Source of the DNA: Thalassomonas actiniarum
Lineage (GTDB): Bacteria; Pseudomonadota; Gammaproteobacteria; Enterobacterales; Alteromonadaceae
Direction of reading: 5' to 3'
Assembly (NCBI RefSeq): GCF_000948975.2
Contig: NZ_CP059735.1
Location: 2,852,001-2,916,000, forward strand
DNA length: 64,000 nt
The position numbers were made by a program, and so were the translations under genes. Shown one piece after another: positions 27,890 to 36,090 of the stretch. The notes under the pieces were generated by a model. It searched no databases, was not told the DNA's origin, and worked only from the letters and a program-made list of their open reading frames with translations. Numbering within the stretch: the first letter of the stretch is position 1; every line of letters starts with the position of its first letter.

Positions 27890-29080
27890 ATGTCTGTGGT
27901 GATCATGGTTAAATGTATTGCCCCTACAGTGGATATAAGGCTGAATAGAACCTATTCTCGGTGGATTAAATTGTTCGGTAAGTTTTTTTCCAGTAAAGCA
28001 GAAACTGCGCTAAGCAGCGATGAAATCAAGCAACTTATTGCAGATAGCTTGGCTGAGTATCGCTCAGACATTTTTCCAGACGGCATTTTGTCCCTGTGCA
28101 CGGATGTTAATATTTCCTTGGCCGGTAAGGGGAAAAAAATCACCGTGGCGCTGACGGTGCCATTCCCCTGCACCTTTGAATTGTCCCAGGTGGCGGATAA
28201 CCTCAGTGAAGCGCTGCAAACCAAAGTTATTTTTGATGTTCAACTGCAGGTGAGGCCGGTAAGAAGCCATGAGATTGCCAATGTCGGTAATATTATCGCC
28301 GTTGCCTCGGGTAAAGGCGGTGTCGGGAAATCGACCACTACGGTCAATCTCGCCTATGCCCTGATGGCGGAAGGGGCAAAAGTGGGGATATTGGATGCCG
28401 ATATCTACGGCCCTTCCATTCCGACCATGCTTGGACTGAAAAACGAAAAGCCCACCTCCAAAGACGGCAAACTTATGACCCCGCTTAACGCACAGGGCTT
28501 AGAGGCCATGTCTATCGGCTTTCTGGTGCCGGATGAAGAAGCCACTGTATGGCGCGGCCCCATGGCCAGCTCTGCCTTTAGCCAGCTGCTCAATGAAACC
28601 GATTGGTCTGATTTGGATTATCTACTGATAGATATGCCGCCGGGTACGGGGGATATCCAGCTGACCCTGGCGCAAAAAGTACCGGTGGCGGCGGCTGTGG
28701 TGGTGACCACACCCCAGGATATTGCCTTAGCCGATGCCGCCAAGGGCATTGTGATGTTTGATAAGGTGCAGGTGCCGGTACTTGGCGTGGTGGAGAACAT
28801 GAGTTATCACCTGTGCGAGCACTGCGGCGAGAAATCCCACCTGTTCGGCCAGGGCGGGGGAGGCGATATTGCCACCAGCTATAGAACCCGGTTATTGGGC
28901 CAGTTACCTTTAGATATTGCCATCAGGCAAGATGCCGACTTGGGGAAATCTGAGATAATAGAAAATAGCGCTGGTGAAATTGCCCTGCTTTACCGTAAAA
29001 TAGCCCGAAATATGGCGGCGCAGTTATTTTATCAGTTAGACAGCCGCAGCCCGAATACCGCAGAAATCGTCACGCTTTAG
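27890..29080 (+). CDS. mrp: Mrp/ApbC iron-sulfur cluster carrier ATPase
   Basis: P-loop NTPase that holds and transfers Fe-S clusters. An N-terminal MIP18-like domain (SLCTDVNISLAGKGKK) precedes the deviant Walker A ASGKGGVGKSTT near residue 138, DADIYGPSIPTMLG, DMPPGTGDIQLTL, and the cluster-binding CEHCGEKSHLFG. The start is uncertain: the ATG at 27890 lacks a ribosome site and the first 27 residues look unlike the family. A TTG at 27971, seven bases after GGTGGA, would give MFGKFFSSKAET and may be the real start. Divergent from metG, upstream of dcd. Confidence 0.93.
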   Translation: MSVVIMVKCIAPTVDIRLNRTYSRWIKLFGKFFSSKAETALSSDEIKQLIADSLAEYRSDIFPDGILSLCTDVNISLAGKGKKITVALTVPFPCTFELSQVADNLSEALQTKVIFDVQLQVRPVRSHEIANVGNIIAVASGKGGVGKSTTTVNLAYALMAEGAKVGILDADIYGPSIPTMLGLKNEKPTSKDGKLMTPLNAQGLEAMSIGFLVPDEEATVWRGPMASSAFSQLLNETDWSDLDYLLIDMPPGTGDIQLTLAQKVPVAAAVVVTTPQDIALADAAKGIVMFDKVQVPVLGVVENMSYHLCEHCGEKSHLFGQGGGGDIATSYRTRLLGQLPLDIAIRQDADLGKSEIIENSAGEIALLYRKIARNMAAQLFYQLDSRSPNTAEIVTL

Positions 29081-29136
29081 CTGGCAGGCTTCGGGTATTA
29101 ACGTATCAATAGGGATTAAACCAAGAAGAAGACCTT

Positions 29137-29736
29137 ATGAGATTAAGTGATCAGGACATAGAACAACATATTAAAGACGGTAAAATTCAAATTTCGCCGA
29201 TCCCAAGTGCCAGCATGATTTCCGGGGTCAGCGTCGATATTCGTTTGGGCAATGAATTTCGCGTTTTTCAGGATCATACCGCGCCTTATATCGACTTAAG
29301 CGGGCCCAGAGAAGAAATGCAAAAGGCGATGAACTCGGTGATGAGTGAGGAAATCTTTATCCCCGACGGTGAAGCCTTCTTCCTTCATCCCGGTGAACTG
29401 GCACTTGCCGTCACCTACGAGTCGGTGACTTTACCTGATGATATTGTCGGCTGGTTAGACGGCCGCTCTTCTTTGGCGCGTTTGGGACTTATGGTGCATG
29501 TAACCGCACACCGTATCGATCCCGGCTGGTCCGGACAGATCGTACTGGAATTTTATAACAGCGGTAAATTGCCGCTGGCATTAAGACCTAAGATGAAGAT
29601 TGCCGCGCTGAACTTTGAAACCATGTCGTCTAAAGCATTACACCCTTATAACAAGCGTAACGATGCCAAGTACAAGGGACAAATGGGCGCAGTTGCCAGC
29701 CGTATCAGTCAGGATGAGTCTTCAACGGCTGAGTAG
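29137..29736 (+). CDS. dcd: dCTP deaminase
   Basis: Converts dCTP to dUTP for thymidylate synthesis. The 199 residues contain [67 protein letters not shown] (nucleotide site with catalytic Glu) and the C-terminal [12 protein letters not shown]. Length matches the trimeric gammaproteobacterial enzyme. It lies 56 bp downstream of mrp and ends at a strong intrinsic terminator. Confidence 0.97.
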
Positions 29737-29800
29737 TCCTCAACGGCTGAGTAGCCTTTAACGCCACAATAGCCGGCGATGGCAAAATAAAATGTGTAAG

Positions 29801-29832
29801 TAAAAAGAGCCGGCTTTGACCGGCTCTTTTTA
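29801..29832 (+). terminator. intrinsic terminator of dcd
   Basis: AGAGCCGG and CCGGCTCT form a perfect 8-bp stem around CTTTGA, followed by a T run, 70 bp after the dcd stop. The A run on the left side could let it also work on the minus strand for yvcK. Confidence 0.88.
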
Positions 29833-30034
29833 TTTACAAGGATGTAAAGTATGTCATGGGTTCATGGATGAACAGGAATGACGATTTACAAGGATGTAAA
29901 GTATGTCATGGGTTCAGGATGAACAGGAATGACGATTTACAAGGATGTAAAGTATGTCATGGGTTCAGGATGAACAGGAATGACGATTTACAAGGATGTA
30001 AAGTATGTCATGGGTTCAGGATGAACAGGCATGA
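29833..30034 (+). repeat. four tandem 51-bp units of GGA-loop hairpins (CsrA-site-like array)
   Basis: Units start at 29833 (52 bp, one extra base), 29885, 29936 and 29987 (last one incomplete). Each + strand unit has the hairpin TTTACA-AGGA-TGTAAA and a second, GTCAT-gg-GTTCA-GGA-TGAAC-agga-ATGAC. In RNA form the first contains UUACAAGGAUGU, matching the known CsrA SELEX consensus RUACARGGAUGU at 11 of 12 positions, with GGA in the loop and ACA/UGU in the stem as required. There are 11 GGA motifs, 8 of them in loops. It resembles the CsrB/RsmZ sponge layout. No good promoter or end terminator is visible, so it may instead be an intergenic hairpin repeat or read-through tail of dcd. Confidence 0.6.
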
Positions 30035-30039
30035 TAGAT

Positions 30040-30957
30040 TTACCTCTGAGCTGTTTTAAGCCGGGTTGTTTCCGGCAACTGGCTGACACACTCTATCAAC
30101 GCCGCCACCAGCTTTTCCTTATCGTGATGATGGGGCACGGCATCACAGGTCAGATCCCGGTAAATCATATTCACCCGGGGAGAGTGTACTTCCTTATCCT
30201 GGCAAATTACGGTATCTATCGGCAAACAGCCGACATTTGCTTCTATCCAGTCCAGCTTATCCGGCAATGACAAGGCTGCCGCCGGACTTTTCTCGGCGAC
30301 AATATTTTCGATAAAAACACTGTGGCCGCGCCTTTTGCACAGGGCATTGGCGATATCACGTACCAGCAGCGGCGGGATCACGCTGGTCAGGAAGCTGCCG
30401 GGACCGAGAATGATCAAATCGGCATTTTCAATGGCTTCAATACACTGAGGCAGGGATTTTACCAAAGGCGCCAGCATCAGGTTTTTCGGCATGATCGGCA
30501 TTTCGTCCACCGAGAGTTCGCCGACACGGCACCGTCTCTGGGGATAAAAGGCCATTAAATCCGTCGGGGTTTCCGACATAGGAAATACCTGGGTTTTAAC
30601 CCTGAGCAGACGACGCACCAGTTTAATAGAGTCTAACGGGCGAGACTGCACCTGGTCGAGACCGTATAAAATCAGATTACCCAGATTATGACCACCCAGT
30701 TCATCCTGGCCGTCAAAACGATAGTTAAAGAGTTGGTTGCCGACAGAGTCATGCTCTACCAGTTGGGTCAGGCAGTTGCGCAAATCGCCCCAGGCGATGG
30801 AACTGCTGCGTTTTCTTAAGCGCCCGGTGGAACCGCCGTTATCAGTGGTGGCGACTATACCTGTAAGTTGATCCCTCATAAACGAAAGTGTCGATAGCAC
30901 CCGACCTAATCCATGGCCTCCGCCAATGGCGACAATATTTAGCTTGTTTAGCTGCAT
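30040..30957 (-). CDS. yvcK: YvcK/CofD-like gluconeogenesis factor
   Basis: A 305-residue protein of the YvcK family (UDP-sugar-binding relatives of the CofD transferase). The glycine-rich IGGGHGLGRVLSTLS at the N terminus, TDNGGSTGRLR, WGDLRNCL, GHNLGNLIL and GPGSFLTSVIPPLLV are typical. In Bacillus the homologue is needed for growth on gluconeogenic carbon; its role in proteobacteria is less clear. It converges on dcd, with the 51-bp repeat array between the two 3' ends. Confidence 0.9.
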   Translation of the reverse strand: MQLNKLNIVAIGGGHGLGRVLSTLSFMRDQLTGIVATTDNGGSTGRLRKRSSSIAWGDLRNCLTQLVEHDSVGNQLFNYRFDGQDELGGHNLGNLILYGLDQVQSRPLDSIKLVRRLLRVKTQVFPMSETPTDLMAFYPQRRCRVGELSVDEMPIMPKNLMLAPLVKSLPQCIEAIENADLIILGPGSFLTSVIPPLLVRDIANALCKRRGHSVFIENIVAEKSPAAALSLPDKLDWIEANVGCLPIDTVICQDKEVHSPRVNMIYRDLTCDAVPHHHDKEKLVAALIECVSQLPETTRLKTAQR

Positions 30958-31572
30958 ATAATAGTTGTTACGTGCTCAATGAGGTTATTTAACCTGTCAA
31001 TAATAAGAGTCAACCTTACCTGTAACCGTTATAAAAATAAAGCAAAGAACCCTTACACCGGATTACACCATATTACATGGCGAGAATTTGCGCATGAACT
31101 GATGTTTTATTGCCTAAACAGGATTTCAAGCAAGTTAACCCGTTTTAAAAACCCTATATAAGAACTAAAAGTATAGCTGCTTACCATTGAAAACAACTTT
31201 GCCCTGTTCAGGAGCAAAGATTGATGAAGTTGCGGCTATAGGGCAGGGCAGTATCGATAACTATGAATGCTTGTTCGCTATGATATTTGTTTGCTAATAA
31301 GAGTAGGGGATTTAAAAACAAGGTTAAATAAGTTAAAAATGAAGGGCTTAGTATTGTCATTTCAAGAGTAGTTGTCTTTGTTTTATTTTCATCTTGCTTA
31401 AAAGCGGCCATAAACAGGGGGTTTTACTAAGGAGACAAGGTAAATCCTGTAAGGGTGAGTATAAAAATCATACACATAAGCGCTTGATTATACAAAAAAT
31501 AATCAAGATGCTTCTTAACTGAGCACTCGAACCAAAAGTTTGATATTTTTACCTGTTTTTTTTAAATAAGTG
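30958..31572. other. AT-rich intergenic region upstream of the tRNA array
   Basis: No credible gene. The one structural feature is a 9-bp inverted repeat, CTTGATTAT (31483-31491) and ATAATCAAG (31499-31507), 66 bp upstream of the tRNA promoter; its role is unknown. The yvcK promoter should lie at the left end. Confidence 0.4.
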
Positions 31573-31650: not shown

Positions 31651-31726
31651 GGGGCTATAGCTCAGCTGGGAGAGCGCTTCGCTGGCAGCGAAGAGGTCTG
31701 CGGTTCGATCCCGCATAGCTCCACCA
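31651..31726 (+). tRNA. tRNA-Ala (GGC)
   Basis: First of 12 tRNAs. 76 nt with encoded CCA; acceptor GGGGCTA/TAGCTCC, anticodon loop CTGGCAG closed by CTTCG/CGAAG. Confidence 0.97.
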
Positions 31727-31772
31727 TCTTATCTTTATTGGTAAGGTGTTTAGATTTAAAAGTGTCATCTGT

Positions 31773-31848
31773 GTCCCTATCGTCTAGAGGCCTAGGACAC
31801 CGCCCTTTCACGGCGGTAACAGGGGTTCGAATCCCCTTAGGGATGCCA
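31773..31848 (+). tRNA. tRNA-Glu (TTC), copy 1
   Basis: 76 nt with encoded CCA; anticodon loop CTTTCAC between CCGCC and GGCGG. The T arm AGGGG/CCCCT and acceptor GTCCCTA/TAGGGAT are intact. Confidence 0.97.
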
Positions 31849-31885
31849 ACTTTTAAATCAAAACGAGTACGCATTGAATAGCTGT

Positions 31886-31961
31886 GTCCCTATCGTCTAG
31901 AGGCCTAGGACACCGCCCTTTCACGGCGGTAACAGGGGTTCGAATCCCCTTAGGGATGCCA
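31886..31961 (+). tRNA. tRNA-Glu (TTC), copy 2
   Basis: Identical in sequence to copy 1, with encoded CCA. The spacer from copy 1 is 37 bp. Confidence 0.97.
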
Positions 31962-32000
31962 CTCGTTTAACAGTTTGAAAATTAGTTTGATTGTCACTAT

Positions 32001-32076
32001 GTCCCTATCGTCTAGAGGCCTAGGACACCGCCCTTTCACGGCGGTAACAGGGGTTCGAATCCCCTTAGGGATGCCA
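32001..32076 (+). tRNA. tRNA-Glu (TTC), copy 3
   Basis: Identical to copy 1. The flanking spacers are unrelated to each other, so selection or gene conversion acts on the tRNA itself. Confidence 0.97.
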
Positions 32077-32106
32077 ATCAAATTAATCAAAATTTAATGG
32101 TTCTAT

Positions 32107-32182
32107 GTCCCTATCGTCTAGAGGCCTAGGACACCGCCCTTTCACGGCGGTAACAGGGGTTCGAATCCCCTTAGGGATGCCA
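32107..32182 (+). tRNA. tRNA-Glu (TTC), copy 4
   Basis: Identical to copy 1, with encoded CCA; it lies 30 bp after copy 3. Confidence 0.97.
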
Positions 32183-32237
32183 CCATTAAATTTAGGATTG
32201 CTCTTCTGGCACAAGGGTAATTTGACACAAGTTTTGT

Positions 32238-32313
32238 GTCCCTATCGTCTAGAGGCCTAGGACACCGCCCTTTCACGGCGGTAACAGGGGTTCGAATCCC
32301 CTTAGGGATGCCA
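32238..32313 (+). tRNA. tRNA-Glu (TTC), copy 5
   Basis: Identical to copy 1, with encoded CCA; it precedes the second tRNA-Ala. Confidence 0.97.
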
Positions 32314-32381
32314 ATATTGCCGGCATCGATTGAAAACCGATGCACATGCTTCAAAGAATGAAGCATCACCGTAAGGATTAC

Positions 32382-32457
32382 GGGGCTATAGCTCAGCTGG
32401 GAGAGCGCTTCGCTGGCAGCGAAGAGGTCTGCGGTTCGATCCCGCATAGCTCCACCA
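32382..32457 (+). tRNA. tRNA-Ala (GGC), copy 2
   Basis: Identical to the first tRNA-Ala. From here on Ala and Glu genes alternate. Confidence 0.97.
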
Positions 32458-32518
32458 TATTCTGGTTGTTGATGGTGTTAATCATTGATAACGAGTGTAG
32501 TAAATTGAATTGTCTTAT

Positions 32519-32594
32519 GTCCCTATCGTCTAGAGGCCTAGGACACCGCCCTTTCACGGCGGTAACAGGGGTTCGAATCCCCTTAGGGATGCCA
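32519..32594 (+). tRNA. tRNA-Glu (TTC), copy 6
   Basis: Identical to copy 1, with encoded CCA. Confidence 0.97.
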
Positions 32595-32641
32595 ATTCAA
32601 TTTATATCCAACGCGGTTAACCTGACTCAATGAAGAGATTC

Positions 32642-32717
32642 GGGGCCATAGCTCAGCTGGGAGAGCGCTTCGCTGGCAGCGAAGAGGTCTGCGGTTCGAT
32701 CCCGCATGGCTCCACCA
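32642..32717 (+). tRNA. tRNA-Ala (GGC), copy 3, acceptor variant
   Basis: Differs from the other Ala copies only by a paired change in the acceptor stem, GGGGCCA/TGGCTCC instead of GGGGCTA/TAGCTCC. A U-A pair has become C-G, so folding is kept. Confidence 0.97.
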
Positions 32718-32780
32718 TATTCTGTTTAATGCTGTTTGATAAAGTCAGCGTTAAGTAGTCTTAAAGTTAAATTGTCTTAT

Positions 32781-32856
32781 GTCCCTATCGTCTAGAGGCC
32801 TAGGACACCGCCCTTTCACGGCGGTAACAGGGGTTCGAATCCCCTTAGGGATGCCA
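32781..32856 (+). tRNA. tRNA-Glu (TTC), copy 7
   Basis: Identical to copy 1, with encoded CCA. Confidence 0.97.
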
Positions 32857-32900
32857 ATTTAACTTAATATTCATTCAGTAAGTATCGAATTGAAAAATTC

Positions 32901-32976
32901 GGGGCTATAGCTCAGCTGGGAGAGCGCTTCGCTGGCAGCGAAGAGGTCTGCGGTTCGATCCCGCATAGCTCCACCA
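32901..32976 (+). tRNA. tRNA-Ala (GGC), copy 4
   Basis: Identical to the first tRNA-Ala, with encoded CCA. Confidence 0.97.
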
Positions 32977-33026
32977 TATTCTGTTTGTTGCCTTGGCGGC
33001 AAATAGTCTATAGTAAATTGTCATAT

Positions 33027-33102
33027 GTCCCTATCGTCTAGAGGCCTAGGACACCGCCCTTTCACGGCGGTAACAGGGGTTCGAATCCCCTTAGGGATGC
33101 CA
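33027..33102 (+). tRNA. tRNA-Glu (TTC), copy 8
   Basis: Last complete tRNA of the array, identical to copy 1. A terminator hairpin begins 14 bp after its CCA. Its 3' flank is the sequence that has been copied into the tandem 142-bp repeats. Confidence 0.97.
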
Positions 33103-35625: not shown

Positions 35626-35985
35626 CCAAGCAGGATAGAGCAGGCCGGTGATCCGACACTAAGGGCAGCGTAAGCATGCCGATAAGAAACCGGACAACGG
35701 CCTGAATTAATTTATGTCCGTTGTTTTATAACGGTGAACTCTCTTGTTTGAGGTTTAGTCGTGATATGCAAGTCATGTTGAGTGTTATTGTCGTGACGTT
35801 AACTCAATGTTTTTTATAGTATTGAATTCTTCGTACAGTAAGTTATACAGTATCTGTAATTAAGCGCAATATTAAATGTAACCATACCCGGATTTATCCC
35901 GCTTTTTCTACTATAAACACAGGGTGAAACATTAACCACAGGAGGTATATCAAGCGAAGCTATTTACTAGCCATAGCTAAAATAG
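35626..35985. other. intergenic region with weak hairpin
   Basis: ACAACGG (35694-35700) and CCGTTGT (35718-35724) followed by TTTATAA may terminate the hydrolase gene. The rest is AT-rich and shows nothing definite before the 15-bp repeats. Confidence 0.35.
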
Positions 35986-36090
35986 CTGATTAATAAATAG
36001 TTAACTAATAAATAGTTAACTAATAAATAGTTAACTAATAAATAGTTAACTAATAAATAGTTAACTAATAAATAGCTGACTAATAAACAG
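35986..36090. repeat. seven 15-bp direct repeats upstream of symE-like gene
   Basis: Five perfect units TTAACTAATAAATAG (36001-36075) are flanked by two degenerate ones, CTGATTAATAAATAG (35986-36000) and CTGACTAATAAACAG (36076-36090). Each junction makes GTTAAC. The array ends 80 bp before the start codon. It could be an iteron-like protein-binding array or a slippage-prone promoter spacer; no function is known. Confidence 0.9.

Follow-up and report, generated by a model that had tools for sequence, protein, structure and literature searches.

Described RNAs nearest to the repeat

Binding sites of CsrA are mostly hexaloops with at most four contiguous base pairs, according to the accessible portions of three papers (PMC7652899, PMC4005645, PMC5027483). 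The available text of two of them gives the repeat of the sponge RNA CsrB as CAGGA(U/A/C)G and the SELEX consensus as RUACARGGAUGU, in which ACA and GGA are fully conserved (PMC7652899, PMC5027483), and the excerpted text of the third describes the high-affinity CsrA/RsmE site as an ANGGAX hexaloop on a stem (PMC4005645). CsrB/CsrC and RsmX/Y/Z (Rfam RF00018 and its relatives) carry many GGA motifs in small hairpin loops, a feature shared by the array described here, which has eight such loop motifs. The nearest precedent is TwoAYGGAY (Rfam RF01731), which the accessible part of its description defines by two hairpins with A-Y-GGA-Y loops and a tandem G-A in one stem and places in gamma-Proteobacteria and Clostridiales (PMC2864571). 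The available text of a later paper already proposes it as a CsrA binder from motif matches (PMC4333381), the same kind of evidence as is used below.

A four-unit array between dcd and yvcK

The window, a 64,000-nucleotide stretch of the Thalassomonas actiniarum genome (contig NZ_CP059735.1, positions 2,852,001 to 2,916,000), contains an array of four 51-52 bp units at 29833-30035, between dcd and yvcK. The upstream gene, dcd (29137-29736, + strand), is an open reading frame (ORF) encoding dCTP deaminase (TIGR02274, 229.9 bits, NCBIfam); its intrinsic terminator, a hairpin followed by a T-tract at 29827-29831, occupies 29802-29831 on the same strand and is evident in the sequence and in a mechanical terminator test. 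A single A (29832) separates this T-tract from the first unit, a distance of 1 nt. Downstream, the ORF of the convergent gene yvcK (30040-30957, - strand; TIGR01826, 291.4 bits, NCBIfam) has its stop codon 4 nt past the array end. Tandem Repeats Finder reports 29832-30043 with a period of 51, 4.1 copies, and 97% matches, and a covariance model of the repeat (R1, described below) matches four units on the + strand: unit 1 (29833-29882, 50 nt with an extra T, 72.6 bits), unit 2 (29885-29933, 67.9 bits), unit 3 (29936-29984, 67.9 bits), which equals unit 2, and unit 4 (29987-30035, 61.3 bits), whose outer stem is altered at the 3' end. The four tandem units that the original prediction had placed between the dcd terminator and the yvcK 3' end are therefore confirmed.

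A lone unit folds into a 6-bp hairpin with an AGGA loop (hairpin A), a GTAT linker, and a longer hairpin (hairpin B) that has an internal loop, in which GG faces AGGA, and a GGA loop. In unit 1 these parts lie at 29833-29848, 29849-29852, and 29853-29882 of the + strand, respectively, with GGA at 29840 (hairpin A), 29866 (loop of hairpin B), and 29875 (internal loop). Units 1, 2, and 4 folded singly at -10.2, -9.8, and -10.6 kcal/mol, each with the two GGA-loop hairpins drawn beforehand. The array contains 11 GGA motifs within 29840-30021, spaced by 26, 9, 17, 25, 9, 17, 25, 9, 17, and 25 nt; eight lie in hairpin loops as CA(N)GGANG and three in the internal loop, in agreement with the count claimed earlier, and dinucleotide shuffles contained a mean of 0.28 and a maximum of 3 such loop motifs (n = 500). 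Unit 1 does have the extra base noted in the original prediction, but the comparison has to be turned around: the family norm for hairpin B is the hexaloop of unit 1, and units 2-4 are one base short. Hairpin A of this array has one base more than the family norm.

Because every stem is palindromic, the whole array, folded to minimum energy, forms a single long rod (-64.1 kcal/mol) and not a row of small hairpins; with pairs limited to 40 nt the energy is -46.5 kcal/mol. The small hairpins would therefore be expected only during RNA synthesis or when bound. Both strands of the array fold well (z-scores of -6.35 and -6.28), so folding energy cannot pick the strand. A 67-amino-acid ORF is present over the array. 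A protein-coding tandem repeat was rejected since unit spacing across sites is not a multiple of three (50 at locus L089, 51 at L071, and 51 and 52 at L087).

The density of GGA motifs, 11 in about 180 nt, would suit a dedicated sponge RNA of the CsrB/RsmZ type with its own promoter at this locus, and the CsrB model does align to the array, weakly, at 25.9 bits (E = 1.4e-5 with only 321 nt searched). That score lies below the gathering threshold of 71, as do the 15 bits of the PrrB_RsmZ model below its threshold of 44, so the covariance models of the known sponges fail to claim the array; relaxed Rfam scans gave the weak CsrB match and unrelated low scores. A consensus scan of 29000-31300, which also overlooks the dcd terminator, returned no promoter-like match on the + strand and only two + strand terminator-like matches past the array, at 30219 and 30280, both within yvcK and the closer of them 184 nt from the array; the original prediction had likewise seen no clear promoter or U-tract end. 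With these results, the dispersal of the unit in the genome, and the variation of the dcd site between genomes (both described below), a dedicated sponge gene is highly improbable.

A dispersed family with a conserved structure

A DNA search of the T. actiniarum genome with the repeat gave 15 matches. An alignment (A1) of 21 distinct units from 14 of those sites was used to build R1, which found at least 140 units at a minimum of 70 sites in the same genome (E up to 1); 150 of 2258 candidates were scored in this search, which makes 140 units a lower bound. Thirty of the 70 listed sites have one unit and the largest has six. All 140 listed units are on contig C1 and none is on C2 (0.94 Mb); in another genome, G001, the second contig does carry units. 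Systematic sampling of 20 segments of 20 kb gave 7 units distributed over 5 sites, of which 4 were already listed; this suggests a total of very roughly 80 sites. The array at dcd is one site of a dispersed repeat family and not a single sponge gene, a possibility that the original prediction had itself raised. The longest array seen, with 12 units, is in genome G003 (L199; G003:C1:4889858-4890478).

Among 40 relatives, the family is present in all four genomes of the same genus (T. actiniarum included), in 6 of 20 other genera of the taxonomic family, and in 2 of 16 from the order; under stricter filters, 44 of the 274 genomes sampled across the class carry it. No description of it was found in the literature covered, which leaves out most subscription journals. 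A model based on 21 units is enough to detect the family readily, which makes it testable.

The family unit opens with a hairpin of 4 bp whose loop is AGGA(N). A GTAT-like linker leads to a longer hairpin, which carries an ANGGAN loop on a 4-bp stem and has a 2 x 4 internal loop. In a longer variant, identified by eye (L015/L049, L062, L068, and L232), hairpins A and B are separated by an additional large stem and by a TCC-loop hairpin, which amounts to a GGA hairpin on the opposite strand. Comparison among units shows a predicted structure kept by compensatory change. Alignment A1 has 94.6% of its cells paired and changes on both sides in 11 of 14 pairs, and 0 of 500 shuffles reached its covariation score. 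Among 130 distinct units of the T. actiniarum genome, 92.4% of cells are paired (at most 43.8% when the structure is slid along the alignment) and the covariation score is 0.663 versus 0.213 in shuffles; for 109 distinct units from named genomes, a set in which most of hairpin A was dictated by the search pattern, the values are 95.2% and 0.437 versus 0.151. In the larger alignments A2 and A4, which were fitted to the model, the count of pairs that changed on both sides is within the ordinary range (65 and 30 of 500 shuffles, respectively, reach it). One pair of the first structure, A31-U36, was rejected: A31 is nearly invariant while its partner varies, and loop B is therefore a hexaloop, ANGGAN, on a 4-bp stem.

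The wobble pairs favor the GGA strand as the one that would be folded. On this strand G-U pairs number 106 and A-C pairs 39, a ratio of 2.7 that compares with at most 1.40 in 2000 shuffles, in a count whose cells are not independent and whose collecting and aligning model favors G-U over A-C a priori.

The unit is close to TwoAYGGAY in concept: it has two GGA hairpins, and an internal loop in which GG or GA faces ARGA; where GA faces ARGA, a tandem G-A could form. It differs in that loop A is short of the base that precedes GGA in that motif and lies outside the stem with the internal loop, and the available portions of the two TwoAYGGAY papers mention no dispersal after terminators (PMC2864571, PMC4333381). 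The TwoAYGGAY model of Rfam gave no match on the array (E up to 10), on 12 family loci (E up to 5), or on 16 loci of other genomes (E up to 1).

Loops and CsrA

The stems covary strongly while the loop motifs keep their sequence. In the 130 distinct units, the bases of GGA in loop B are G in 125/125, G in 125/125, and A in 123/125, and in loop A they are G in 112/114, G in 112/114, and A in 109/113. Loop A reads C-AGGA-N-G, with T (51), A (32), C (23), or G (4) after GGA, and corresponds to the CsrB repeat; loop B reads C-A-N-GGA-N-G with free N positions and corresponds to the high-affinity hexaloop. The family loops thus match the published pattern of CsrA sites in detail and are putative CsrA sites. 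Set against the CsrB/RsmZ sponges, the family is dispersed after terminators at no fewer than 70 loci, scores below the Rfam cut-off, and, in the consensus scan around the array, gave no + strand promoter-like match and no close terminator-like match past the array.

The T. actiniarum genome encodes one standard CsrA of 65 amino acids. It also contains two CsrB-like candidates, at C1:4532410-4532744 (L351, 66.2 bits) and C2:402479-402827 (L352, 57 bits), both below the cut-off of 71; the former reads as a GGA-rich RNA with a terminator at its end. In the class-wide sample of 274 genomes the family is not associated with CsrA: a CsrA match was obtained for 40 of 44 genomes with the family and for 195 of 230 without it (p = 0.35; matched by hand). 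The four positive genomes without a CsrA match are G155 (73% complete), G179 (95%), G270 (77%), and G293 (55%); G179 and G293 belong to one genus, and a true absence of CsrA is therefore possible there.

Position relative to terminators, genes, and replication

At 48 of the 70 listed sites the mechanical test detects an intrinsic terminator on the GGA strand whose end lies -1 to 8 nt ahead of the first unit, and at 39 of these the distance is exactly 1 nt, as at dcd. The same test places a terminator next to the array at 34 of 51 listed sites in G003 (27 at 1 nt), compared with 14 of 4000 random positions and with 0/70 and 0/51 (G003) at the far array end. Judged by eye, several of the 22 sites that fail the test have a hairpin with a shorter T-run (for example, L059, L063, L089, and L112), and other failing sites are longer variants in which the array starts further upstream (for example, L052, L062, L072, and L107). 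From the opposite direction, a unit or degenerate relative directly follows 6 of 36 gene-end terminators in the 400-kb sample, also scored by eye, and one more lies about 14 nt later. In the named genomes, 101 of 118 pattern matches come after a terminator hairpin versus 57 of 753 other occurrences of TTTATG at the same loci. Some more distant lineages have units without a terminator.

Gene calls based on ORFs make the upstream gene co-directional with the GGA strand at 62 of the 70 listed sites. The original prediction had held that scattered single copies on both strands would speak against it. The unit's dispersal over 70 listed sites, 30 of them with a single copy, therefore bears that out in part, but strand is not random.

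Arrays directly after terminators might instead serve transcription termination or insulation, either by backing up a leaky terminator on the GGA strand or by presenting a C-rich opposite strand as a Rho site for a convergent gene. A convergent gene does lie downstream at 40 of the 62 sites, compared with 14 of 36 sampled gene-end terminators (p = 0.02), but the remaining 22 face a co-directional gene. A further same-strand terminator within 200 nt is present at only 3 of 70 and 1 of 51 (G003) sites versus 113 of 2000 random stretches, and the conserved GGA hexaloops would be left unexplained. Such a role is improbable.

GC skew changes sign near 3.0-3.3 Mb in T. actiniarum and between the 2.5- and 3.0-Mb bins in G003. 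The GGA strand follows the replication fork at 56 of 70 sites and, in G003, at 45 of 51, compared with 198 of 304 sampled genes (p = 0.016 and 0.0009, respectively); the two genomes share sites, so these counts are not independent. Against sampled terminators of the T. actiniarum genome (23/36) the excess is not significant (p = 0.10). Replication orientation was rejected as the main cause, being mostly explained by gene orientation; the fork bias is thus mostly gene bias, with some excess left.

Evolution between genomes

At least 27 of the 51 listed G003 sites have both flanks orthologous to those of a T. actiniarum site. Twenty-four of the 27 pairs were compared (three were left out for want of a full unit), giving 312 base-pair comparisons: 247 unchanged, 27 compensatory, 13 one-sided, 19 broken, 3 unpaired in both, and 3 gaps. 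Both loops retain GGA in 44 of 48 cases each. Sites have stayed in place in the two species, with compensatory changes in their stems. Mean identity is 84% at orthologous sites, 64% between sites of one genome, and 91% within arrays, and from the first two values the copies look old and resident. At dcd, genome G002 has two units in the same place and G003 has a decayed remnant (22.8 bits, E = 0.001), and 28 loci of other genera gave no unit (two chance-level matches, E = 0.45 and 0.71). The family therefore looks old and resident, with arrays that vary in copy number and individual sites that can be lost.

Proposed CsrA sites on read-through RNA

The best reading, to which we assign a probability of about 0.45, is that these are structured repeats placing putative CsrA sites on terminator read-through RNA. 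At most sites, units stand singly or in tandem immediately past an intrinsic terminator and share the strand of the gene upstream. RNA polymerase passing a leaky terminator would synthesize a tail in which every 51 nt offer two sites that CsrA dimers may bind. Each array site would then act as a small CsrA buffer, its output set by read-through and by transcription upstream, and the distributed buffers would add to the CsrB-type RNAs of the cell. Should CsrA bind these tails, its sites in the cell would far outnumber those on the known sponge RNAs and would depend on how leaky the terminators are, a connection not found described in the literature covered. The original interpretation, a CsrA-titrating RNA perhaps made by read-through of the dcd terminator, is partly supported by this: loops and stems fit CsrA sites and the position after terminators fits read-through, but the unit is dispersed and a discrete titrating RNA made at this locus is not supported.

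Several observations stand against the read-through reading. CsrB-like candidates are already in the genome; CsrA presence is uncorrelated with the family, two positive genomes of one genus having no CsrA match; and the dcd site is decayed in G003 and without a unit in the 28 loci of other genera. The predicted minimum-energy fold of the whole array hides the local hairpins, and exact abutment to a terminator is unnecessary for a sponge. Identical 23-mers across orders and units within transposase-like remnants, described next, point to mobility.

Possible mobility and likeness to REP/BIME and BOX elements

REP sequences are extragenic palindromes made of a tetranucleotide followed by an imperfect hairpin, with tetranucleotides that differ from GTAT. 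The family resembles REP/BIME elements with their RAYT (TnpA-REP) in being extragenic and palindromic and in lying at gene 3' ends in clusters; unlike them, it has the GTAT linker, its own stem sequences at each site, and terminator abutment, and its copies are not near-identical. BOX repeats of pneumococcus are, like this family, dispersed, modular, structured, and intergenic, but differ in sequence and host, and we know of no terminator abutment or GGA loops for BOX.

The repeat may accordingly be a REP/BIME-like nonautonomous mobile element whose hairpins are recognized as single-stranded DNA by some enzyme. Insertion would follow hairpin, T-run, and A targets, arrays would grow by slippage, and the likeness to CsrA sites would be coincidental or secondary. 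Such an element would be a repeat that targets terminators and has hairpins closely imitating the CsrA site. An identical 23-mer, TTTATGTTCAGGANGAACGGTAT, occurs across genera and orders even though stems are free to vary, the matches listed including Colwellia, Cognaticolwellia, Marinobacterium, Bowmanella, Marinobacter, Amphritea, Dasania, Arenicella, Thalassomonas, and others. At four loci, three from one metagenome-assembled genome (L276, L303, and L312) and one from G099 (L395), a unit without a terminator follows GGATTTTATG (GGGTTTTATG at L303) inside transposase-like remnants, which we take to be of the IS91 type. Two downstream remnant pieces scored 16.4 and 13.3 bits with Pfam Y2_Tnp, both below the cut-off, and the upstream piece had no Pfam match. 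Searched separately against plasmid records, the upstream piece gave 60-95% identity and the downstream piece mostly 60-80%, with 1 of the 16 matches listed annotated as a transposase. The tendency of GGA strands to follow replication more often than genes do also favors mobility.

On the other side, the T. actiniarum genome has no Y1 transposase, and 30 loci from 52 Y1 matches of relatives contained no unit (E below 0.1; best E, 0.16). A single unit searched in plasmids and phages gave no match, the divergence between sites makes the copies look old and resident, and the loop pattern with its free N positions is that of CsrA. Mobility, the main rival, is possible, somewhat less probable than the read-through reading but more probable than a role in termination or insulation.

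The read-through reading and mobility could also be combined: many gammaproteobacteria might hold a genome-wide CsrA reservoir on their terminators, with free CsrA reporting escape from termination; the units would have spread as mobile elements preferring terminator T-tracts and then been kept for this RNA function. This broader scenario is unlikely.

Other repeats in the window

The Rfam gathering scan of the window returned 12 tRNAs only; twelve tandem tRNA genes, four Ala(GGC) and eight Glu(TTC), lie at 31651-33102 on the + strand with repeated spacers. An 18-bp repeat at 29717-29763 spans the dcd stop codon, with TAG in each copy, and a 15-bp tandem repeat, AAATAGTTAACTAAT, occupies 35980-36087 with 7.2 copies and 94% matches.
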